Origin: Alkaliflexus imshenetskii DSM 15055
GTDB taxonomy: Bacteria; Bacteroidota; Bacteroidia; Bacteroidales; Marinilabiliaceae
Length of the DNA: 64,000 nucleotides
Direction: 5' to 3'
Assembly (NCBI RefSeq): GCF_000517065.1
Contig: NZ_KI912105.1
Span: 709,635 to 773,634, forward strand
Positions 17,483 through 56,755 of the stretch are shown here, piece after piece. Below the pieces are notes generated by a model. That model was not told the origin of the DNA. It did not search any database and was given only the letters and a program-made list of their open reading frames with translations. How positions within the stretch are numbered: position 1 is the first letter of the stretch; the number at the start of each line of letters is the position of its first letter. The translations under genes and the position numbers were made by a program.

Positions 17483-19915
17483 CTATCCCATAATTACTTC
17501 AACTTGATATGTTCCTGGTTTGGCAAGTGGTATAACATTGCCTTCTACTTCCACATTATCTATCTTAATACTTTTCACGCCTTTGCAAACACCCAAGGGG
17601 TTCGAAATGTGAATGTGGTAGGTCGCTCCTCTCAATTTTCTTGTCACTTGATAACCCTTCCACGCTTTTGGAATACATGGATCTATCATCAGACCATTAT
17701 ATTGAGGACGTATGCCCAGGATATATCTGGTGATGGCATAATAGTTCCAAGCCGCGGTTCCTGTAAGCCATGAGTTTTTTGCCTCACCGGGCTTATGGGC
17801 ATCTTTTCCGGCAATCATCTGCGAATAAACGTAAGGCTCTGTCTTATGCAAATCGCTTATATCTTCCAAGTAAGCAGGGCATATCTTTTTATAGTAATCC
17901 CAAGCCATTTCGCCACGTCCAATCATTGTTTCACCAATCATGATCCATGGATTGTTGTGACAGAAAATACCTGCATTCTCTTTATATCCCGCAGGATAAG
18001 TAGAGATTTCACCATACTCAATCACATATCGGGTAAAAGCCGGATTGTTCAATACAATTCCATACTCGCAATCCAAACGTTCCTTCACCGAATCCAAAGC
18101 CTTTTCAACCATACCCTCTTCCACACCAATTTCAGCCATAGAGCACCATCCCTGTGATTCAATAAAGATTTTGCCTTCTTCATTTTCATTACTGCCCACC
18201 TTTTTGCCAAAGAAATCATAGGCACGCAGGTACCATTCGCCATCCCATCCATGCTGTTTTATGGTCTCTACCATCTTCGCCACGTGAGCCGCTGCTTTAT
18301 CAGCCTCCTCGTTACGTCCGGTTTGACGGCACAAAGCCACATATTCGCGACCGTACACCACAAATAGTCCGGCAATCATAACCGACTCGGCAGTTCCACC
18401 CTTCTTGTTTTCAGTGGTTTGAAACGACTCGTTGGGGTTAGATGAGAAACAATTCAGGTTGAGACAGTCGTTCCAGTCGGCACGGCCAATTAATGGTAGT
18501 CCATGTGGGCCCAGATTGTTTACCACATGATAAAATGAAGCTTTTAAGTGATCGAAATGAGGCTTTGCTGTTGCATCATCGTTGTCAAACGGAACCAGCT
18601 CATCAAGAATGCCATAATCGCCTGTCTCTTTTATGTAATCGGTAGTTGATAAGATAAGCCATAGAGGGTCGTCGTTGAAATTGCCGCCAATGGCATTGTT
18701 ACCCCGTTTGGTAAGGGGCTGATACTGATGGTATGCTCCACCGTCCTCAAACTGTGTGGAGGCAATATCGATGATGCGTTCACGGGCACGAGCCGGCACC
18801 TGATGCACAAAACCGATAAGATCCTGGTTGCTGTCTCTGAATCCCATCCCACGACCAATACCTACCTCAAAAAACGAAGCGGAACGCGACATGTTAAAAG
18901 TTACCATGCATTGGTACTGATTCCAGATGTTAACCATTCTGTCGAGTTTCTCATCTCCGCTCTTAAGCACATATACGCTCAACAAGTTATCCCAATAGCT
19001 GCGTAAAGCATCGAAAGCCTCAGTCACCTTTTCCGGGGTATTAAACTGATCAATTACTGCTTTCGCCTTTGTTTTATTTATCACATTCTTCGACTCCCAT
19101 TTCTGGTCATCGGCATTCTCTACATAACCCAAAATAAATACCAGATCTTTGGTTTCGCCAGGTTTCAATTCTATCTCCAAATAGTGAGAAGCAACCGGAG
19201 ACCAACCATGAGCGTGCGAGTTTCGAGGCTTACCCTCTACCACTACTTGGGGAGCCGAAAACTCATTATACAATCCAACAAAACTTTCTCTGTCAGTATC
19301 ATACCCCTGCACAGGCTGGTTAACATGGTAGTAGGCATAATGATTTCTACGCTCCTTATATTCAGTTTTATGATAGATGGTTGAACCGTCAATTTCAACT
19401 TCGCCGGTGCTCAGGTTACGCTGTAAGTTGTTCTGATCGTCTTCGGCATTCCACAGGCACCACTCCATAAAAGAGAATAACTTAAACTTTTTGGTATCAC
19501 TTCCGGTGTTCCTAAGCGAAAGCTTTTGAACTTCGCACCACGATTTAAGAGGCACAAAACAGAGTAATTCTGCCTGAATGTTATTCTTGGATCCTTGAAT
19601 ACGTGTATAGCTTAACCCATGACGACACTCATAACTATCCAGCTCCGCTTTAACAGGTTTCCAACCGGGAGACCATATTGAATCGCCATCATTTATATAG
19701 AAATAGCGTCCGCCGTTATCCATCGGCACATTGTTGTAGCGATAGCGGGTGAGGCGGCGAAATTTGGCATCTTTATAGAATGCATACCCACCGGCACTAT
19801 TGGATATCAACGAGAAAAAATCTTCGTTACCCAGATAGTTTATCCAGGGCCATGGCGTTTGCGGATTGGTGATCACATACTCTCTGTTCGCGTCGTCAAA
19901 AAAACCGTACTTCAT
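17483..19915 (-). CDS. GH94 cellobiose/cellodextrin phosphorylase
   Basis: This 810-residue protein without a signal peptide is the right length for cellobiose phosphorylase. It begins [18 protein letters not shown], typical of that family. The N-terminal beta-sandwich domain is followed by an (alpha/alpha)6 barrel with [21 protein letters not shown] and the general-acid motif RADWNDCLN (Asp480). The C-terminal jelly roll carries [14 protein letters not shown]94 enzymes cleave cellobiose with phosphate in the cytoplasm to glucose-1-phosphate and glucose, saving ATP. Cellodextrin phosphorylases are usually longer, so cellobiose is the likelier substrate. It follows the GPH symporter by 45 bases, consistent with uptake then phosphorolysis. 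Confidence 0.93.
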
Positions 19916-19960
19916 ATTTCAATTGATGTTTTAGGTGTGTTTCTCTGTTTTATATCGGAA

Positions 19961-21574
19961 CTACTCTGCTGATTCACGTGCCCGGCGGCTGTTCAGCTCA
20001 AGCGTGATTTCATCAAGTTTACTCTGCGTAAGCGGATAAAGGGTCATTAATGCTGCGGCCAACAGTGCTATAATTGTGGGTATCCAGCTCATGAGCATTT
20101 TAATGGCCGGAATGGCACCTTGAATGGCGACCGAATCCTGTCCGCTGTAATGGTATGCCCCTAAAATGAGACCTATAATGGCACCCGCCACACCACCACC
20201 AAACTTGGTGGAGAAAGAACCTGCTGAATAGACGAGACCGGTTGCCCGACGACCGTTCTTAAACTCGGAGTAATCGGCAGCATCGCCAAGCATGGCAAAA
20301 AACAGTGTCGGAAAAATAGCAGCGGCAAACTCAGATATGATGCCTATTGCAAAGATGGCAGATATGTCACCGGGGCCACAAAATATGAGCAATGCATTTA
20401 CCGCCCCAGAAAAAATCAGAGCATGAATAAACAGTTTGCGCTTTCCCAGCTTCTTGCCCAATGGGCCTGTGGCCATGGCTCCAGCTATTGAAGCAAGCAT
20501 AAGTCCAACAAGATAGGTGCCTGCAAGTAGTTGATTGTTGAGATAATGGGTAAAATAAATGACTACAATTCCCTGTTTTATCGAATTGTACACGTTAAAC
20601 AACAAACCAATGAATAGCAGAACCAGCCATGGTCGATTTTTTATCAAGTCCTTCAAATCCTGGATTAAATTACTTTGCTGAGTCTTTGGCGGCATAACCC
20701 GTTCACGTGTACTATAAAAGGTGATTATCATGAAAAGAGCCAAAAAAGCAGACATGATATAAATAGAATGACTATAACCGCGCTTCTGGTCAATGATGGA
20801 TATTTTGTCAACCGTTAAGTCCGGCTCGCCTTCAACAAGAAACACATAACTCTCATTGGCTTCCATCGAGAAACTTAATGATGAAACAGCAATAGCTGTT
20901 TCGCTGTCTGCAACATCGTCAAACCATGAAAAGTGAGCTATTCCTGCTTTGGTTTTAATATTGACATTTTCCACATCCTTGGATACAGATACGGTGACCT
21001 GATAGCTGGAATCGTCAATTTCGGTGATTAAGACCGATGGATTCACATTGCCGAAATGCGCTACTAAAAAGAGTAAAGCGCCCTGCACAATCATTCCGCC
21101 GCCAAAAGCACCCACCATTCGATAGGAACCAAGACTGGTGCGCTCTTTGTTATCTCCTGTAATTACCGCCATTAATGCACCATACGGGATATTATTGGCT
21201 GTATAAATAAGTGTAAAAAGAATGTAAGTGATGTAGGCATAAATAATCTTTCCGGTTGAGGTCAAGTCGGGTGTGGTAAAGAGTAGGGAAAGAATTACGC
21301 CCAGAGGAATAGCAGTCCACAGTATCCAAGGGCGGAATTTACCATATCGCGAATTGGTGCGGTCACCGATAATGCCCATTAACACGTCACTAATGCCATC
21401 ACTGAAACGTGCTACCAGCATAAGTAAGCCAACAGCGGCAGGGTTAATGCCAAACACATCGGTGTAAAAAACGAAAAGGAAGGTGGCTACGCCGCGCCAT
21501 GCAATGTTGGCAGCTCCATCACCCAGAGCGTATCCAATCTTTTCACTGAGTTTTATCTTATCAATATTTGCCAT
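19961..21574 (-). CDS. GPH-family sugar:cation symporter with a large periplasmic loop insertion
   Basis: This 12-helix MFS/GPH (MelB-like) transporter has the family phrases KIGYALGDGAANIAWRG and RFSDGISDVLMGIIGDRT. I take the ATG at 21574; a TTG lies two codons upstream. The protein is 537 residues from this start, against about 440-480 for typical members. The excess is a hydrophilic, strand-rich segment (about residues 175-262) between predicted helices 5 and 6, which in this topology faces the periplasm. It reads like a small beta-sandwich rather than a linker (VTVSVSKDVENVNIKTK, then SLSFSMEANESYVFLVE). It should carry cellobiose or short cellodextrins across the inner membrane. It starts 16 bases after the regulator stop. 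Confidence 0.9.
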   Translation of the reverse strand: MANIDKIKLSEKIGYALGDGAANIAWRGVATFLFVFYTDVFGINPAAVGLLMLVARFSDGISDVLMGIIGDRTNSRYGKFRPWILWTAIPLGVILSLLFTTPDLTSTGKIIYAYITYILFTLIYTANNIPYGALMAVITGDNKERTSLGSYRMVGAFGGGMIVQGALLFLVAHFGNVNPSVLITEIDDSSYQVTVSVSKDVENVNIKTKAGIAHFSWFDDVADSETAIAVSSLSFSMEANESYVFLVEGEPDLTVDKISIIDQKRGYSHSIYIMSAFLALFMIITFYSTRERVMPPKTQQSNLIQDLKDLIKNRPWLVLLFIGLLFNVYNSIKQGIVVIYFTHYLNNQLLAGTYLVGLMLASIAGAMATGPLGKKLGKRKLFIHALIFSGAVNALLIFCGPGDISAIFAIGIISEFAAAIFPTLFFAMLGDAADYSEFKNGRRATGLVYSAGSFSTKFGGGVAGAIIGLILGAYHYSGQDSVAIQGAIPAIKMLMSWIPTIIALLAAALMTLYPLTQSKLDEITLELNSRRARESAE

Positions 21575-21589
21575 GGTCAAGGTTGGGTT

Positions 21590-22354
21590 TTAGATAGCAA
21601 AATCAAGTAGTTCCGTTTTGGTTGTTTCGTAAATGTCCCTGTCGAACACATACAATCGCGCAGGTTTGTGTGCCACGCCCTTTTGCTTTTCATCCAGAGG
21701 GACGAGGTATTTCATCCGAGAGACTTTTTTCCTGAAATTGCGCTTGTCGAGGGTAACACCCAGTATTACTTCATAAAGTCGTTGCATCTGCGAAAGAGTG
21801 AACTTAGGAGGTAAAAGCTCGAAACCAATAGGTTCGCGCGTTAGTTTCTTGCGCAATGCCTGAAGTGCCTTCTGTAGAATTTCCATGTGGTCAAATGCCA
21901 GTTCTGTAACATCAGAAACCGGAACCCATCGTACATTGCGCCCTTTCCATTCAAGAGTAACCTTATCTGTGTCGAGTAATGAATAGTAACCAATTGTGAT
22001 GATGCGGTGATTGGGATCGCGTCCGTTGGCAGCAAGCCAAGCCTTGTCGTTTTCGCGATTGATACGTGTTGGTGAGCCAAAAGTGTAGAACTGCTCCAGA
22101 TAGATATTCTTTAACCCTGTAAGGTCAAAAAGAATACGGGCAGCGGCCTCATCCAGATCTTCTTCTTCAAAAATGTGGTTACCAGTAAGCGTAAGATCGT
22201 TAAACAGTTCTTTGCCGGATTTTTCATCGTACATTACCCGATCCACCAACAACACATTGAGCTGCATAAAATCAAAACCGAATATAACACAGTCAACAGA
22301 AACAGAGTTGTTAAGGACAATCTTTTGCTCAACCAAATTAGCCGTCGTATTCAT
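21590..22354 (-). CDS. Nudix-fold transcriptional regulator (NrtR/AraR type)
   Basis: The protein is about 254 residues from the ATG at 22354; a GTG at 22357 is an alternative. The N-terminal half is a Nudix fold (VDCVIFGFDFMQLNVLLVDR, then an EEEDLDEAAARILFDLTGL region). The box that should read REUXEEXGU reads RILFDLTGL, so the metal-binding Glu residues are lost and hydrolase activity is unlikely. The C-terminal third (FTLSQMQRLYEVILG, then NFRKKVSRM and ARLYVFD) is the winged helix of NrtR-family regulators. In Bacteroides a protein of this type, AraR, controls arabinose use by binding the sugar. Here it is the first gene of the cellodextrin operon and probably its sugar-responsive regulator. 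Confidence 0.88.
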   Translation of the reverse strand: MNTTANLVEQKIVLNNSVSVDCVIFGFDFMQLNVLLVDRVMYDEKSGKELFNDLTLTGNHIFEEEDLDEAAARILFDLTGLKNIYLEQFYTFGSPTRINRENDKAWLAANGRDPNHRIITIGYYSLLDTDKVTLEWKGRNVRWVPVSDVTELAFDHMEILQKALQALRKKLTREPIGFELLPPKFTLSQMQRLYEVILGVTLDKRNFRKKVSRMKYLVPLDEKQKGVAHKPARLYVFDRDIYETTKTELLDFAI

Positions 22355-22373
22355 CACAAAAAAAATTATGCTT

Positions 22374-49353: not shown

Positions 49354-51264
49354 ATGCACTTAAGGTATTTTTTGGCGAATTTATTGGTTGTTGTAACCAT
49401 ACACAGTTTTACCGGACAGAATACATCCGGCAATGAGGATATATGGTTAAATGAGGTTACCGTTCGTTCGCAGCGTTTGGAGGAGTTTGCCATAGGTGCA
49501 ATGGTTGAAAAAACCGATACCACTTTGGCATTGATGCTCGCAAACGGTTCACTGTCGGATCTGCTCTCATTGGGTTCAAATCTTCAGGTAAAAACCTATG
49601 GGCCAGGCGGACTCTCCACTTTCAGTTTGCGCGGCGGAGGCAACGCCCACACAGCTGTCATGTGGAATGGCATTAACATACAAAGTCCGATGAACAGCGG
49701 CGTGAATCTATCTGCAATGCCCGCACTTTTTTTCAAAGATGTAAAAATTCAACATGGAGGCGCGGGTACACTCTATGGCAGCGGCGCCATGTCGGGCGTG
49801 GTTCATCTGAATGGAGAAAACCTGTTCCTCAGGCCAAACCAACTGAGTGCTGCAGTGGGTTATGGCAGCTTTTTTACTCCGAGTGCCAATATTGCACTCA
49901 AAAATGGCAATGAGCGTAAGGCTTTCGCATTTGCGGCTTTCGCAAAAAAAAGCGATAACGATTTTGAATTTATAAATACAGCGCGCATGGACAGGGCTGT
50001 TCAAAGACAACAAAATGCCGGATACAGCCAGGCAGGCATTCTGACAGATGCACACATTCGTACCTCAGATAATACAATGCTTACTGCGGCGCTCTGGCTT
50101 CAGCACTTCGACAAAGAGATACAAACACAAATGTTTAAGACCAGACCTGACACCGCAGTTCAGATAGACAATACCCTCATGGGTGCGGTTAACTTCAAAT
50201 GGTTTGGCAATGGCAAACAATTAAATATCAAACAAGGTATTATTGTTAATGAAGTAGATTACACAGATTATATTATACCCACTAACAGTGGTAATAACCA
50301 ATCACTTTCGCTCGTGAGTGAAGTTGAAAGCCGCATAAACATCAACAGACACATCTGGAGCGTGGGTTTAAATTACACGCGTGAACAGGGAAAATCTGAC
50401 GGATACCGCACAACCGAAAGCCGTGACCGTCTGGCACTGTTCTCGTTTCTGCATCTCAAAAGCAGGGATAACAAACTTACAACAGTTCTGAGTGTGCGCG
50501 ATGAAATGACCAATGGTGAACTGCATCCAATGGTATTTGCATTGGGCTCAGATTACAAACTATATGCCCCACTGACACTTAAAGGCAACATCTCGAAAAA
50601 CTATCGCATACCCACATTTAACGATTTAAACTGGGCAGAAAGCAGCTATGCACGTGGCAATCCGAATCTGAAAGCAGAATCGGGATGGTCGGGCGATTTG
50701 GGAGTGGCAATCGATAAAAATTATGCGCATACGGCAGTTTCAGTCTCGGCTACGGCATTTATTACCCATGTAGAAAACTGGATTGTTTGGCTCCAGGGCA
50801 GTGACAATGTTTGGATGCCCACCAACAAAAAGACAGGCATGTCGAGGGGTATTGAGTTTAGGATGCAAAACTCACATAAGTCGGGCAGCAACTTGTTTGG
50901 ACTGAACCTATCCTATAATTATATCCATTCCAGACTGCGTACCGACGATATTTACGATGGCAGTCAAATGACCTACATTCCCCGGCACAGTACCAATGCA
51001 ATGTTCTCATGGAATCTGCACAACATTACCACAGCATTTACGCTTAATGCAGCTGGCGAACGGTATTATGACGCTACAAACAAATTGGAACCATACATTA
51101 CAGGTGACCTTATGACAGCATATAAAGTTCCGCTTTCAGCATCCACTCTAACAGTCACATTTCGAATTGCGAACATCTGGAATACAACATACCAAACCAC
51201 AGCATGGTACGCCATGCCTAACAGACACTACGAAGCCGGTTTAAGGTATAACATCAAAATCTAA
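49354..51264 (+). CDS. BtuB-like TonB-dependent cobalamin receptor
   Basis: The 636-residue outer-membrane receptor has a signal peptide (about 1-22, SFTGQ) and a short N-terminal segment with WLNEVTVRSQRLE as the TonB-box region. The plug contains FSLRGGGNAHTAVMWNGINIQ and GAGTLYGSGAMSGVV. The barrel has NISKNYRIPTFNDLNW and NPNLKAESGWSGDLG, the usual landmarks. Its size is that of BtuB and siderophore receptors and far below SusC, and it lacks the CarboxypepD_reg-like domain. The riboswitch upstream identifies the ligand as a corrinoid. The next gene, 33 bases on, encodes a BtuG-like lipoprotein, the surface partner of BtuB in Bacteroides. Confidence 0.93.
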   Translation: MHLRYFLANLLVVVTIHSFTGQNTSGNEDIWLNEVTVRSQRLEEFAIGAMVEKTDTTLALMLANGSLSDLLSLGSNLQVKTYGPGGLSTFSLRGGGNAHTAVMWNGINIQSPMNSGVNLSAMPALFFKDVKIQHGGAGTLYGSGAMSGVVHLNGENLFLRPNQLSAAVGYGSFFTPSANIALKNGNERKAFAFAAFAKKSDNDFEFINTARMDRAVQRQQNAGYSQAGILTDAHIRTSDNTMLTAALWLQHFDKEIQTQMFKTRPDTAVQIDNTLMGAVNFKWFGNGKQLNIKQGIIVNEVDYTDYIIPTNSGNNQSLSLVSEVESRININRHIWSVGLNYTREQGKSDGYRTTESRDRLALFSFLHLKSRDNKLTTVLSVRDEMTNGELHPMVFALGSDYKLYAPLTLKGNISKNYRIPTFNDLNWAESSYARGNPNLKAESGWSGDLGVAIDKNYAHTAVSVSATAFITHVENWIVWLQGSDNVWMPTNKKTGMSRGIEFRMQNSHKSGSNLFGLNLSYNYIHSRLRTDDIYDGSQMTYIPRHSTNAMFSWNLHNITTAFTLNAAGERYYDATNKLEPYITGDLMTAYKVPLSASTLTVTFRIANIWNTTYQTTAWYAMPNRHYEAGLRYNIKI

Positions 51265-51297
51265 CTTTTATATCACCAATCAATAACTTATATAAAA

Positions 51298-52398
51298 ATG
51301 AGAATTATGAGATTAACAAAAGTGCTACAATCAGCTTATTTAAAACTGTTTATGGCAGTTATACTGGCATCAACCGTTGCCTCTTGTAGCGATAGCGACA
51401 AAGAAACCGTTCGCATGCGCTTTGTAAATGGCACTCTGGTGCTGAACGAGGGTTCATTCATGAAAGCAAATGCAAGTATCTCATTCATCAGCAATGAGAC
51501 CAATGAGGTTACATCAGAAATATTTAAATTGGTAAACGGCAGCAATGCTGTGCTGGGTGATGTGCTTCAAGACTTGGTAATCAAAGGTTCTGATGCCTAC
51601 ATTGTAATGAATAATTCGCACCAGATTCACATTGTAGATGCTGAAACCTTTGAATGGAAACGGACTATAGATGGATTAAGTTCACCAAGGTTTGGAGTCA
51701 TTCACGGCAAAAATCTTTTTGTAACACAATGGGGAGAAAACGGAAGTGTGGTTGTAATTGACACTGAAAGCATGGCCATCGTAAAAACCATCCCTGTTGG
51801 TTCTGGTCCTGAAGGAATTATAGCGCACAATAACAAAATATGGGTGGCAAACAGCGGCGGTTTTGGCTTTGACAACACCATTTCGGTTATCGACCCAGCT
51901 ACATTGGAAGTAGAAATTGTTATTGAAACACCTGATAAACCAAATCATTTGACAGTTGATAAGAACAACAATATTTGGGCTACATGTCATGGACTAGTAG
52001 AATATGATGAAAGTTGGAATATAACCAACCAAACGCCATCACGCCTTGTCAAAATTTCTTCTTCGTCAATGCAAATAGAGAAAGACCTGCTTGTGAGCGA
52101 CTCAGATCATGCCACAAAAATTGATACCTCACCAGATAAATCAACAATTTATGTGCTTAACAGTTCCGGAATCTACAGCGTTGACATTGATGGCACATTA
52201 TTCCCATCCACGCCTTTGGTTGATGGATATTTCTATAGCTTCAACGTGAATCCGACTACCGGAAAAATTTTCACTTGCGATGCCGGCAACTGGTCTTCAG
52301 CAGGAAGCATTAAGATTTTTAATCCTGAAACTCAGGAAATAGAGGCAACCATAACAGAAGGCATCGGCATAGGCCCGAACAAATTGGTTTTCAGATAA
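51298..52398 (+). CDS. btuG: BtuG-like surface corrinoid-binding propeller lipoprotein
   Basis: The 366-residue lipoprotein has Cys30 in TVASC, followed by SDSDKE, an acidic surface-export-like motif. The mature part is a YncE/DUF5074-type seven-bladed beta-propeller. Recurrent blades include QIHIVDAETFEWKRTIDG, VVVIDTESMAIVKTIPVG, TISVIDPATLEVEIVIET and IKIFNPETQEIEATI. In Bacteroides thetaiotaomicron the homologous BtuG binds B12 very tightly on the cell surface and passes it to BtuB. Its position behind a riboswitch-controlled BtuB-like gene supports the same role here. The symbol rests on fold and context; other YncE-like propellers exist. No BtuCDF genes follow; a terminator comes next. 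Confidence 0.85.
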   Translation: MRIMRLTKVLQSAYLKLFMAVILASTVASCSDSDKETVRMRFVNGTLVLNEGSFMKANASISFISNETNEVTSEIFKLVNGSNAVLGDVLQDLVIKGSDAYIVMNNSHQIHIVDAETFEWKRTIDGLSSPRFGVIHGKNLFVTQWGENGSVVVIDTESMAIVKTIPVGSGPEGIIAHNNKIWVANSGGFGFDNTISVIDPATLEVEIVIETPDKPNHLTVDKNNNIWATCHGLVEYDESWNITNQTPSRLVKISSSSMQIEKDLLVSDSDHATKIDTSPDKSTIYVLNSSGIYSVDIDGTLFPSTPLVDGYFYSFNVNPTTGKIFTCDAGNWSSAGSIKIFNPETQEIEATITEGIGIGPNKLVFR

Positions 52399-52613: not shown

Positions 52614-53606
52614 TCAGTTCCTAATTTCATTCCATGAATACTCGCCAATATCAACCAACTCCTGAAGATTATCGCGGGTAATGGCAATGGACTTCATTTG
52701 GTAAGTGGGAATTCGGAAAACGCCATTAAATGTTTGCGCATTTGACAACTGGCTGGCATCGCTACCACCAAGTAGTTGGGATGTTAACTCTGCCACTTTA
52801 TGGCCTAACGCCCTATGCGGATGGTATATGCTCATGGTTTGCTCTCCCCGGTAAACACTTCGAACCGATTCAATTGTTGCATCCTGCCCAGTAACCACCA
52901 CACTACCTTTTAAACCATATCGGTCAAGAATCTCCAAAGCGCCCAAACCCATCGGATCGCTACAGGCGATCACAGCATCAATGTCAGTGCCATGTGCATC
53001 TATTACCTGCTGCATTTCGAAGCGAGACCTGACACCTGACCAACCTTCAATGTATGATTCATAAACCAGGTTAATCCTGCCGGCCTCAATATGTGGTCTC
53101 AAAAGCGAATCGATGTGAAATTTTACCTCAAACCCATTGCGGTCGAACCGGTCTCCGGCTAATACTACATAGTTACCCCGTGGACGACGACTCAAAGTTG
53201 CTTCTACAAACAATTTGGCAATGTCGGCATTGTCACCTGTTACAAACAGATCATATTCGGTATTATTAATCAATCTGTTATATGCTATCACCTTAACACC
53301 ACGGCGGTTTGCTTCCCGCACCAGAGGTGCAATTGTATTTCCATTTACACAGGCAATAATCAATGCATCAACACCCTGATTCAGTAATTCGTACCCCTGT
53401 TGCAACTGCAATGCGTCGTCATCATCAGCATGTTTAGTTATCATTTTAATGCCAAGCTCTTTAAGCCGCTCTTCCATATAATTACCCTCATTCACAAAAC
53501 GAGCCCTGTTAATGGAAGGACATAAATAACCAACAGTTTTTGCATTTTCCTGACTACAACCTACTAAAATCAGGAACAGAAACAGAAAATTAAAAAGTAC
53601 CCTCAT
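52614..53606 (-). CDS. XylF-like periplasmic sugar-binding lipoprotein (copy 1)
   Basis: The 330-residue lipoprotein has Cys17 in LILVGC. It belongs to the Peripla_BP_4 (PF13407) D-xylose/ribose-binding type of solute receptors. Motifs include VKVIAYNRLINNTEYDL, close to the xylose-binding protein, PRGNYVVLAGDRFDRN, DAVIACSDPMGLGAL and VVVTGQDATIESV. No permease or ATPase gene is in the window, so it may serve a sensor rather than a transporter. It is a tandem paralogue of the next gene upstream (53695), clearly more than half identical by eye, and both diverge from a chemoreceptor gene. The ligand is likely a pentose or other monosaccharide (inference). Confidence 0.9.
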   Translation of the reverse strand: MRVLFNFLFLFLILVGCSQENAKTVGYLCPSINRARFVNEGNYMEERLKELGIKMITKHADDDDALQLQQGYELLNQGVDALIIACVNGNTIAPLVREANRRGVKVIAYNRLINNTEYDLFVTGDNADIAKLFVEATLSRRPRGNYVVLAGDRFDRNGFEVKFHIDSLLRPHIEAGRINLVYESYIEGWSGVRSRFEMQQVIDAHGTDIDAVIACSDPMGLGALEILDRYGLKGSVVVTGQDATIESVRSVYRGEQTMSIYHPHRALGHKVAELTSQLLGGSDASQLSNAQTFNGVFRIPTYQMKSIAITRDNLQELVDIGEYSWNEIRN

Positions 53607-53694
53607 ATAATTCTATAATATTAATTTACGCAAAATATCGTTCCCAATATAATACAAAAGCCAGATAAAACAACAATAAGAGTAATGTAAGCTT

Positions 53695-54696
53695 TTATTC
53701 TTGTATTTGATTCCATGTAAATACACCGGCATCAACCAGATACTGCAAATTATCCCTGTTAACCACGATTGATTTCATCTGAAAAGTAGGTATAACTGCC
53801 AGTCCATTAAAAGAATGAGCGTTTGCAATCTGACTGGCACTTCGTCCGTTGAGCATCTCATAAACCAGTTCGGCAGCCTTGCTTCCCAGCTCTTTGGGTG
53901 GATGATAGATTGTTACAGTTTGAAAACCACGATGCACATTACGTATGGATTCGAGTTCGGCGCCTTGACCTGTCACAACTACTTTTCCCTGAAGGTTATT
54001 CGCCTGTAACACATCAAGAGCCCCAAGCCCCATGGCATCATTACAAGCAATAATGGCATCAATATCAGAACCATGTGCATCAATAACCTGCTGCACTTCA
54101 AATGCGGCGCGGCTGCGCGACCAACCTTCCAAAAAAGTGCTATACAAAAGGTTGATTCGTCCGGATTCGATGTGCGGCAGCATTAATGAATCGATGTGAT
54201 ACATGAGTTCAACCCCATTTCGATCGAACCGATCGCCACCCAGAATAACATAATTACCCCTGGGCGCGCGAGACACAGCCGCGTCAACAAAAGCCTTTGC
54301 CATGTGGCCATTGTCACCTGCATAGAAAAGATCATACTCCGAATTGTTAATCAATCGGTTATAAGCCACCACCATTACACCTTTCTCTTTGGCTTCACGA
54401 ATCAATGGCGCGATGGTATTTCCATTAACCGCAGTGATTACAAGTGCATCTACACCCCGCTCAATCAAATCGAGCCCCTGCTGAATTTGCAGTGCATCGT
54501 CATCTCCTGCATATACAATGGAAAAATTCACTCCCAACTCGCGAAATCGCTGTCCCATCGCCTGCCCTTCTTCAACAAAGCGAACCCTGTTTTCCGATGG
54601 CGTTAAATATGCAACAGTAAATTGACTGTCAGTTTTGCATCCGGCAAAAAGGAACATCAGAGCTAAAAGGCACAGAAGTAGTAGGTGTTTCATCAT
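53695..54696 (-). CDS. XylF-like periplasmic sugar-binding lipoprotein (copy 2)
   Basis: The 333-residue lipoprotein has Cys20 in LFAGC; a second ATG at 54693 is also possible. The fold and motifs are the same as in copy 1: VMVVAYNRLINNSEYDL, APRGNYVILGGDRFDRN, DAIIACNDAMGLGAL and VVVTGQGAELESI. The binding residues differ in places, for example GQDAT versus GQGAE. That could mean different ligand preference. It is the promoter-proximal gene of the pair and lies 256 bases from the divergent chemoreceptor gene. Its promoter at 54736-54767 matches the Bacteroidota consensus. The duplication without ABC components is unusual for classical sugar uptake. Confidence 0.9.
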   Translation of the reverse strand: MMKHLLLLCLLALMFLFAGCKTDSQFTVAYLTPSENRVRFVEEGQAMGQRFRELGVNFSIVYAGDDDALQIQQGLDLIERGVDALVITAVNGNTIAPLIREAKEKGVMVVAYNRLINNSEYDLFYAGDNGHMAKAFVDAAVSRAPRGNYVILGGDRFDRNGVELMYHIDSLMLPHIESGRINLLYSTFLEGWSRSRAAFEVQQVIDAHGSDIDAIIACNDAMGLGALDVLQANNLQGKVVVTGQGAELESIRNVHRGFQTVTIYHPPKELGSKAAELVYEMLNGRSASQIANAHSFNGLAVIPTFQMKSIVVNRDNLQYLVDAGVFTWNQIQE

Positions 54697-54735
54697 AATT
54701 TTTTTTATACACTAAATGAGATATAACCATGCAAA

Positions 54736-54767
54736 CAAAGATATTAACAAACAAATAGCTTGGTCAA
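54736..54767 (-). promoter_or_regulatory. Bacteroidota-type promoter of the XylF-like pair
   Basis: On the minus strand TTG (54767-54765) and TATCTTTG (54743-54736) are separated by 21 bases, an exact -33/-7 match. The transcript would begin near 54729, about 33 bases before the ATG. Confidence 0.7.
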
Positions 54768-54952
54768 GCACTTGGTACAAACCAATAAAATCAGAAATAT
54801 TTAATTATTCTGACAATAAATATTGACATTGAGATCAAAATAGATGCATATTTACCTATTTTTTTCAACAAAAAATTACATTTTTACGAAGATATTAAAC
54901 ATTAAGCAAAAAAATTATTAGTTTCGACCTAAACAATCTGGACGATAAAAGT

Positions 54953-56755
54953 ATGGCAGGAAAAATCAATTGGCGCGATTTAAGCATCCGCCACAAAATA
55001 AGCTCTAGTTTTGCCATCATCATTGGCATATCATTGCTAACAGGTGGAGTATTATTGATGAATCTCTACAAAATATCGGGTGAAGCAAGAGAGTTATCTG
55101 CGGTTCACATACCATCGGTTTACGAATCGAATCAATTGATGCGGTTCTGGCTCGAGTCGAGTGAATTTGGCAGATCCTATGATTTTACAGGAAACCCTTA
55201 TTTTATTCAACAACACAACACATCTTTTGGTAGGATGGAGAATGCCTTGGCGAGCCTAAGCAACCTGACTGCTGACCGGGAAGCTGCTCTTGCAGACAAA
55301 GGTGTGTTTCTGCCATTGTTAAGGCAATTGACATCGGAATACAAGGCCAGTCGTGAGGAGTACGAATCCATAGCGAAGCGTTTTCAAAGCGCGCACAAAC
55401 AATTGAGTAGTGACCTGGCAGCTTTAAACAGCAACCAGTCGTACACCGCCAATTTCACCACTTTACGCATTTTATCTCAGCTCAATGATTTAAGCAACCA
55501 AATAAATGGCGCAATTGTGGCGCGTGATGGTGTTAAGATGTCATCCATTAAACCGCAACTGGAACGTTTGCGCAGCAGCATTCAATCTTCAGGAGCACCC
55601 GGTGCGTTCGTGAATCAGAGCCGCAATTTGGTTAACACAGCCATTAATATTACCGATACCTACAAATCCATGCGACTGGCAGAATTGCACAGTTATGAAT
55701 TGGGCAAAAGCCTGATGTGGGAAGTACGTGCCTCGTCGGATATAGGGCTTGACCAGATTATGATTACCGGGGAGAACAGCAACCGCATAACAAATCAGCA
55801 AAGGTATATCCAGATCATCACAATTGTTCTTTCACTGCTTCTTGGAATACTATTCATCACCTTATTGTCGGCTGCCATCGGAAAGCCAATTATAGCAGGT
55901 ATTGAGATGGCTGAAAAAGTTGCAGCAGGTGATTTAACGGTGAAGATGGAGGAAAATCGTAAAGACGAAACCGGCAGGTTGGCTTCTGCACTAAATAATA
56001 TGACTGCCAATCTCAACAAGCTAATCACAGAAATCATCCAGACCTCAGGAGATATTGTACAAGCCAGTGAAAGGCTCAATGCCCGTGCAATGGATTTGGC
56101 AGAAGGAGCTAATGAACAAGCTTCTTCAGCAGAGGAGGTTTCATCGTCGATGGAAGAGATGCATGCAGTGATTCAGCAAAACACCGAGAATGCACTGGAA
56201 ACCAATAACATTTCATCGCGGGCTGCTGACAAAATGCAATCGAGCAACGAACGCTCAAAAGAGGCAGCTACCTATATGGAGGATATTACCAGCAAGATTT
56301 CGGTGATTAAAGATATTGCCTTTCAGACCAATATTCTTGCGCTGAATGCCGCAGTTGAAGCCGCCAGAGCGGGAGCCGAAGGCAGAGGCTTTTCGGTGGT
56401 TGCTGCCGAAGTTAGAAAGCTGGCCGAAAGAAGCCAGGCAGCAGCTGAAGAGATTACCAAAGCTTCAACAGTAACAATAGAATCGGGACATTTGGCCACA
56501 TCCATGATGGATGAGCTTACACCACAAATCAGCAAAACAGCGGAGTTGGTTAAAGAGATTGCAGCAGCCTCGCGTGAGCAATTAACCGGTGTTGAACAAA
56601 TTAACCACGCCATTCAGGAGTTAAATCAGGTTACACAGCGTAATGCCTCCAATGCCGACGACATCAGCGAAGCATCCTCTGAGTTACAAAGTCTGTCGAA
56701 AAGACTATTTGAAGCAACATCGGCCTTTAAAGCTCTTGATGCTAAGGTAGGCTAA
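54953..56755 (+). CDS. Methyl-accepting chemotaxis protein
   Basis: The 600-residue receptor has membrane helices at about 17-38 and 286-308. A helical periplasmic sensor of about 245 residues lies between them ([20 protein letters not shown] is similar to helical bimodular-type sensors). A HAMP domain spans about 309-361, and a long cytoplasmic coiled coil follows. The hairpin tip reads [20 protein letters not shown], then [19 protein letters not shown], the CheA/CheW contact signature. No C-terminal CheR/CheB pentapeptide is seen. It implies chemotaxis or a related Che pathway elsewhere in the genome. It diverges from two XylF-like lipoproteins, an arrangement in which binding proteins may present sugar to the receptor. 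Confidence 0.95.

Follow-up and report, generated by a model that had tools for sequence, protein, structure and literature searches.

The divergent gene block at positions 52614-56755 of the window, the whole 64,000-nucleotide stretch of the Alkaliflexus imshenetskii genome analysed here, probably encodes a transport-independent two-part sugar chemoreceptor, in which XylF-like lipoproteins would detect the sugar for a methyl-accepting chemotaxis protein (MCP) and gliding would be steered by the resulting signal. The genome that holds the window is 4.12 Mb in size and 99.95% complete, and its host is a gliding polysaccharide degrader. Across related genomes, the linkage between the receptor gene and a XylF-like gene is far beyond chance, because this 4.1-Mb genome holds two XylF homologues, yet in 53 genomes such a gene was found beside the receptor gene in 61 units.

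Tandem XylF-like lipoproteins with a conserved but altered putative sugar pocket

Two XylF-like lipoprotein genes lie side by side on the minus strand, encoding B (52614..53606, 330 aa) and its tandem copy A (53695..54696, 333 aa), the latter adjoining the receptor gene. Their products are 60% identical and both belong to the Peripla_BP_4 family (PF13407), with E-values of 8.5e-41 for B and 2.1e-42 for A and scores of 140.6 and 145.9 bits against a gathering score of 35.1. The description of two similar sugar-binding lipoprotein genes given in an initial annotation of this DNA was thereby confirmed, and the coordinates given there for the block agree exactly with those of the three ORFs. The best NCBIfam model of both proteins was TIGR02634 (xylF), at 203.6 and 191.4 bits; since this equivalog model of the D-xylose ABC transporter binding protein has a curated cut-off of 389.55 bits, A and B are homologous to XylF without being XylF equivalogs. 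The closest solved proteins by sequence and fold were 4ywh, E. coli XylF (3m9w/3ma0) and ChvE, where the AlphaFold2 (AF2) model, of moderate confidence (pLDDT 71.6), served for the fold comparison only.

Pocket positions were numbered by E. coli XylF and compared over 62 receptor-linked homologues, using a list of residues that we take to be the sugar contacts of E. coli XylF. On this list, both copies retained most positions, the changes being D90N, K242H and W17F/Y. B retained R16, N68, R91, D135, N137, W169, D197, Q221 and D222, and was substituted at D90N, W17F and K242H. In the homologue set, R91, D135, W169 and D197 were invariant (62/62), R16 and D222 were each kept in 60/62, and asparagine at position 90 (54/62) and histidine at position 242 (55/62) prevailed. 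Copy A alone has glycine at position 222 (D222G). The residue pattern is read as that of a sugar pocket with shifted specificity.

A signal peptide and a lipobox cysteine were present in both proteins (LVGC-SQENAK in B and FAGC-KTDSQF in A). At the sequence level, the lipobox cysteine was found in all 62 receptor-linked partners, 61 by script and the last (L033/L066) showing ILVLAGC behind a mis-called start. The first beta-strand begins 7 residues past this cysteine in 49 of the 62, and no clear acidic surface-export signal follows it in these partners, the net acidic count centring on zero. Because of the short tether and the lack of a clear export signal, an inner-membrane location is favoured for the lipoproteins. 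The lipid anchor, which had been considered unusual, is thus a constant feature of the partners and not a local oddity, and it has a precedent in Treponema (PMC4990184).

The lipoprotein and receptor genes are separated by a divergent intergenic region of 256 bp (54697..54952). Within it, a Bacteroidota-type -7 element, TATCTTTG, occurs in exact form at 54736..54743 on the minus strand, with a TTG at 54765-54767, upstream by a 21-nt spacer. Together they form a plausible promoter of the lipoprotein genes that falls short of the full consensus: the strict pattern TTTG-N17-23-TAnnTTTG had no exact site in the region. An exact consensus promoter was therefore ruled out, and the "exact promoter" of the initial annotation was an overstatement, as only the -7 element is exact.

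A chemoreceptor with a predicted helical bimodular sensor

The divergent gene on the plus strand (54953..56755) encodes an MCP of 600 aa, with matches to MCPsignal (8e-35) and HAMP (5.6e-9) and a conserved hairpin tip, which together place it among the MCPs. Its layout comprises TM1 (residues ~16-40), a periplasmic sensor (~41-275), TM2 (~276-300), HAMP (317-355) and a signalling domain (413-581). The signalling domain is two heptads shorter than that of E. coli Tsr and equal in length to that of the six other alignable MCPs of the genome.

No Pfam model, HBM (PF16591) included, matched the N-terminal sensor at E<=0.001. The AF2 model of the sensor (55073..55777, plus strand; 38 homologues, pLDDT 90.2) was all-helical, in agreement with the large helical periplasmic sensor anticipated from the sequence, and consisted of two stacked helical modules as judged by AF2, VIA-align and Foldseek. 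Its closest PDB folds were McpS (Z 14.6), McpZ (13.6), TorS (13.1) and PilJ (12.7), and the McpS and TorS matches covered the whole domain (213 and 216 residues, respectively); the Foldseek E-values were weak (best 1.5e-3), and helical bundles score high generally. The modelled sensor thus has good, but not indubitable, likeness to a helical bimodular HBM/TorS-like fold. The match to TorS is relevant because TorS is the docking sensor of a periplasmic binding protein, TorT. Conserved sensor residues fell in the membrane-proximal module and were common to homologues that have no linked XylF, and a conserved sensor surface was consequently dropped as a candidate docking site. To look outside the order, 395 genomes of the class were searched with the sensor, and the only matches at E<=1e-20 were those of the family itself.

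Conserved linkage of receptor and lipoprotein genes

Little is understood, to our knowledge, of how gliding Bacteroidota locate polysaccharides, and the open-access literature searched yielded no sugar chemoreceptor from this group. In 71 Marinilabiliaceae genomes, a XylF-like gene adjoined 52 of 52 full-length receptor homologues, a hand count among the matches listed, the weakest of which were C-terminal only. Outside the family but within the order, 13 full-length sensor homologues were identified, of which eight had an adjacent XylF, four had none and one was at a contig edge, so that the pair was present in 8 of the 12 with readable context. The initial annotation had named a lack of conserved linkage in related genomes as grounds for rejecting its proposal, and these counts support the proposal instead. 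In all, 61 receptor-XylF units were recognised in 53 genomes. The XylF-like gene is carried by the cultivated Marinilabiliaceae genera Marinilabilia, Alkalitalea, Natronoflexus, Geofilum and Breznakibacter.

Among the 61 units, 58 were divergent, two had the genes adjacent on the same strand, and one had its nearest intact copy beyond the receptor. Both outer flanks were available for 40 units, which showed 31 distinct flank pairs. The varied flanks and orientations indicate that the pair survives rearrangement, moving and flipping without being separated. No other two-component or chemosensory gene was seen to be consistently adjacent to the units. A sugar-catabolic operon context was rejected as a clue to the ligand, since the flanks vary and many of those sampled look housekeeping by their N-termini. 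In some relatives only, the unit lies near a set of GH94 phosphorylase, MFS and NrtR genes.

The two families also co-vary. Pairwise distances of sensors and XylF-like proteins were correlated in a mirror-tree analysis (r=0.859, reached in 0 of 2000 permutations), a value to which shared ancestry contributes. A stronger test of pairing is provided by six genomes that hold two units, in which a given XylF type always accompanies the same type of receptor: XylF identity was 56-73% within a receptor type and 36-41% between types, and the two XylFs of one two-unit genome were 38-41% identical and closer to XylFs of the same type elsewhere. Inheritance of whole units would also give this pattern.

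Proposed mechanism and alternative explanations

In the proposed mechanism, one or both XylF-like lipoproteins would be held by their ~7-residue tether at the periplasmic face of the inner membrane and would bind a monosaccharide freed by the cell's own polysaccharide degradation. The closed lipoprotein would then dock on the MCP's two-module helical sensor, in the manner of TorT with TorS and of XylFII with LytS, and the signal would pass through HAMP and the signalling domain to one of the genome's CheA/CheW complexes, with CheY biasing gliding. We infer direct contact between the two parts, a monosaccharide ligand, gliding as the output and differing ligand ranges of A and B.

The lipoproteins might instead serve as binding subunits for an ABC sugar importer whose other genes lie apart from this locus, their adjacency to the MCP being incidental or reflecting dual use, as for E. 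coli MglB. Indeed, E. coli XylF and Agrobacterium ChvE, the characterised proteins closest to them, work as ABC importer subunits. The permease family that serves importers of the XylF/RbsB type (CUT2) is PF02653; however, it had no match in the whole 99.95% complete genome, in a search whose controls gave matches in 12 of 14 test genomes, and it was matched in only three of the 71 family genomes (absent from 68). The lipoproteins are therefore not ordinary CUT2 importer subunits here, and the role of an ABC importer subunit was rejected on this ground. No ABC permease or ATPase gene was present either in the list of ORFs near the locus. The local absence noted at the outset was thus confirmed, and the check for an unlinked transporter also favoured the original proposal. 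Across 31 contexts, moreover, the linkage is to the MCP and not to transporter genes, which leaves the importer explanation largely refuted and very remote.

Two further explanations keep the locus in signalling or regulation. In one, the MCP sensor binds a ligand of its own, while the lipoproteins are merely co-regulated and serve another sensor or buffer periplasmic sugar. In its favour are the direct binding of small ligands by HBM domains of the McpS type, the four receptor homologues outside the family that have no adjacent XylF, and the XylF-like lipoproteins that were found away from any MCP; from the same observations, the sensor and the lipoprotein may each have other uses. Against it stand the pairing kept by every full-length family receptor listed, the co-segregation of paralogous units and the absence of any other consistently adjacent two-component or chemosensory gene, and we consider it quite improbable. 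The other explanation accepts the signalling unit but gives it an output other than taxis, the MCP-CheA array controlling gene expression, c-di-GMP or similar. Such non-motility chemosensory systems exist in other bacteria, and the three CheA systems in this one genome would accommodate one. The genome encodes three CheA and four CheW, the partners expected of an MCP, in three clusters whose gene names were read by eye from the sequences; the presence of CheR and CheB in two of the three, of CheY-like receivers with these clusters, and of GldD argues against it, and it is regarded as unlikely. The output of the proposed two-part chemoreceptor is likely to be gliding rather than swimming, because GldD is present in the genome and FliG is absent from it.

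Relation to known binding protein-receptor systems

In E. coli, MglB and RbsB act with Trg, and MBP acts with Tar. The arrangement proposed here is like these pairs in that a sugar-loaded binding protein would activate a chemoreceptor, but the E. coli binding proteins are soluble and shared with ABC transporters, and their receptor genes are unlinked, whereas those described here are lipid-anchored, transporter-free and gene-linked. McpS of Pseudomonas, which binds organic acids directly, is likewise an MCP, and its sensor has the fold modelled here (Z 14.6); unlike the HBM domain of McpS, the present sensor had no Pfam HBM match.

Binding proteins that activate chemoreceptors and kinases are widespread (PMC9602780), and TorT-TorS and XylFII-LytS are listed among those with structures (PMC6381276; XylFII-LytS 5XSJ, Clostridium beijerinckii, Table 1). 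The TorT-TorS system of E. coli and Vibrio likewise has a type I periplasmic binding protein as co-receptor on an all-helical sensor (TorS Z 13.1), but its transducer is a histidine kinase that responds to TMAO, whereas the present locus has an MCP and XylF-like lipoproteins. XylFII-LytS shares with the present locus a XylF-family protein used for sensing and a helical sensor domain on the transducer, but is built on a Gram-positive sensor kinase, whereas the transducer here is the MCP of a Gram-negative glider and its sensor has two modules; XylFII was not among the PDB sequence matches of the XylF-like lipoproteins. With an MCP signalling domain in place of a histidine kinase, the locus resembles the TorT-TorS/XylFII-LytS type and is not a member of it.

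Two other systems share the lipid anchor. In CuaDSR of Ruminiclostridium cellulolyticum, the binding protein is a lipoprotein that serves sensing only and is encoded beside its transducer (PMC10384115), but the transducer is a sensor kinase, the sugar is cellobiose, and the binding-protein family and sensor fold are others. Tp0684 (MglB-2) of Treponema pallidum is a lipid-anchored sugar-binding protein that has been proposed to act in chemotaxis (PMC4990184); it is clustered with ABC transporter genes, of which there are none here. No cited precedent unites a XylF-type lipoprotein with an HBM-type MCP and the lack of an importer, and no report of such a unit in Bacteroidota was found in the open-access literature searched. 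The locus offers a concrete receptor with a presumed ligand-binding partner, kept across cultivated genera. With no importer on the binding protein, sensing would be separated from uptake, two functions that are intertwined in the well-studied E. coli systems.

Tandem copies and the wider class

The two paralogous units found in some genomes and the tandem copies provide natural material on the co-evolution of binding-protein and receptor specificity. A broader reading, which we put forward as a possibility still somewhat doubtful, is that the units form a lineage-specific class of dedicated sugar chemoreceptor, seen here only in this order of Bacteroidia: tethered, transport-free XylF adaptors that each evolve in step with a single HBM-type MCP and serve to steer flagellum-free gliding towards sugars from polysaccharide breakdown. 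Tandem copies with different pockets, such as A (D222G) and B (intact), would then allow a single receptor to respond to two sugars. In A. imshenetskii, copy A is on a longer branch than B (0.61 versus 0.36). The duplication of the binding protein, originally presented as part of the system, did not hold as a general feature, since two or more XylF copies were found in only 6 of the 61 units, one of which (G027) is a single gene split in two. This low frequency, together with the copies in G052 and G053 being each other's closest relatives, indicates that tandem duplication arose repeatedly and lies outside the core design.

Genomic context of the XylF-like lipoproteins and the receptor

The window also encodes a GH94 phosphorylase together with an MFS_2 transporter and an NrtR/AraR-type regulator (17483-22357). 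In Alkalitalea, Natronoflexus and Geofilum relatives (loci L062-L064), a cluster with matching gene sizes was found a few genes from the unit of XylF-like lipoprotein and chemotaxis receptor, a possible hint that the ligand is derived from beta-glucan or xylan. At 49354-52398 of the window, a gene for a BtuB-like TonB receptor precedes one for a DUF5074 beta-propeller lipoprotein, and the two possibly constitute an outer-membrane uptake pair.

A second XylF-like lipoprotein, more distantly related (27-31% identity), occurred in Marinilabiliaceae genomes (L079, L081-L088) with no related receptor nearby. In several of them its gene lay between one resembling an aspartokinase and a large one resembling a helicase/nuclease; this lipoprotein was absent from the genome of A. 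imshenetskii DSM 15055. XylF-like lipoproteins were also located at L090 and L091, which look like fructan-use loci from their GH32-like genes, sugar MFS and sugar kinase. L091 additionally encodes a hybrid two-component regulator of 921 aa to which a Peripla_BP_4 sensor is fused. Outside the family, receptors carrying the sensor type of the window receptor (L136, L138) lacked XylF and were divergent from a CheW-like and a CheY-like gene, and the sensor is therefore usable in another setting.

The receptors of the three chemosensory clusters in the A. imshenetskii genome (L097, L098, L099) have pentapeptide-like aromatic tails (NYEKF, DYQRF) that could recruit CheR/CheB. Unlike these, the window receptor (54953-56755, + strand) has no such tail. 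Downstream of one of these clusters lies a CRISPR array (L099:16008-18313; C5 of the A. imshenetskii genome, about 2,874,000-2,876,300), in which a 30-nt repeat, ATTTCAATTCCACTATGGTGCGGTTGGGAG, is present in at least 35 copies spaced about 66 bp apart.
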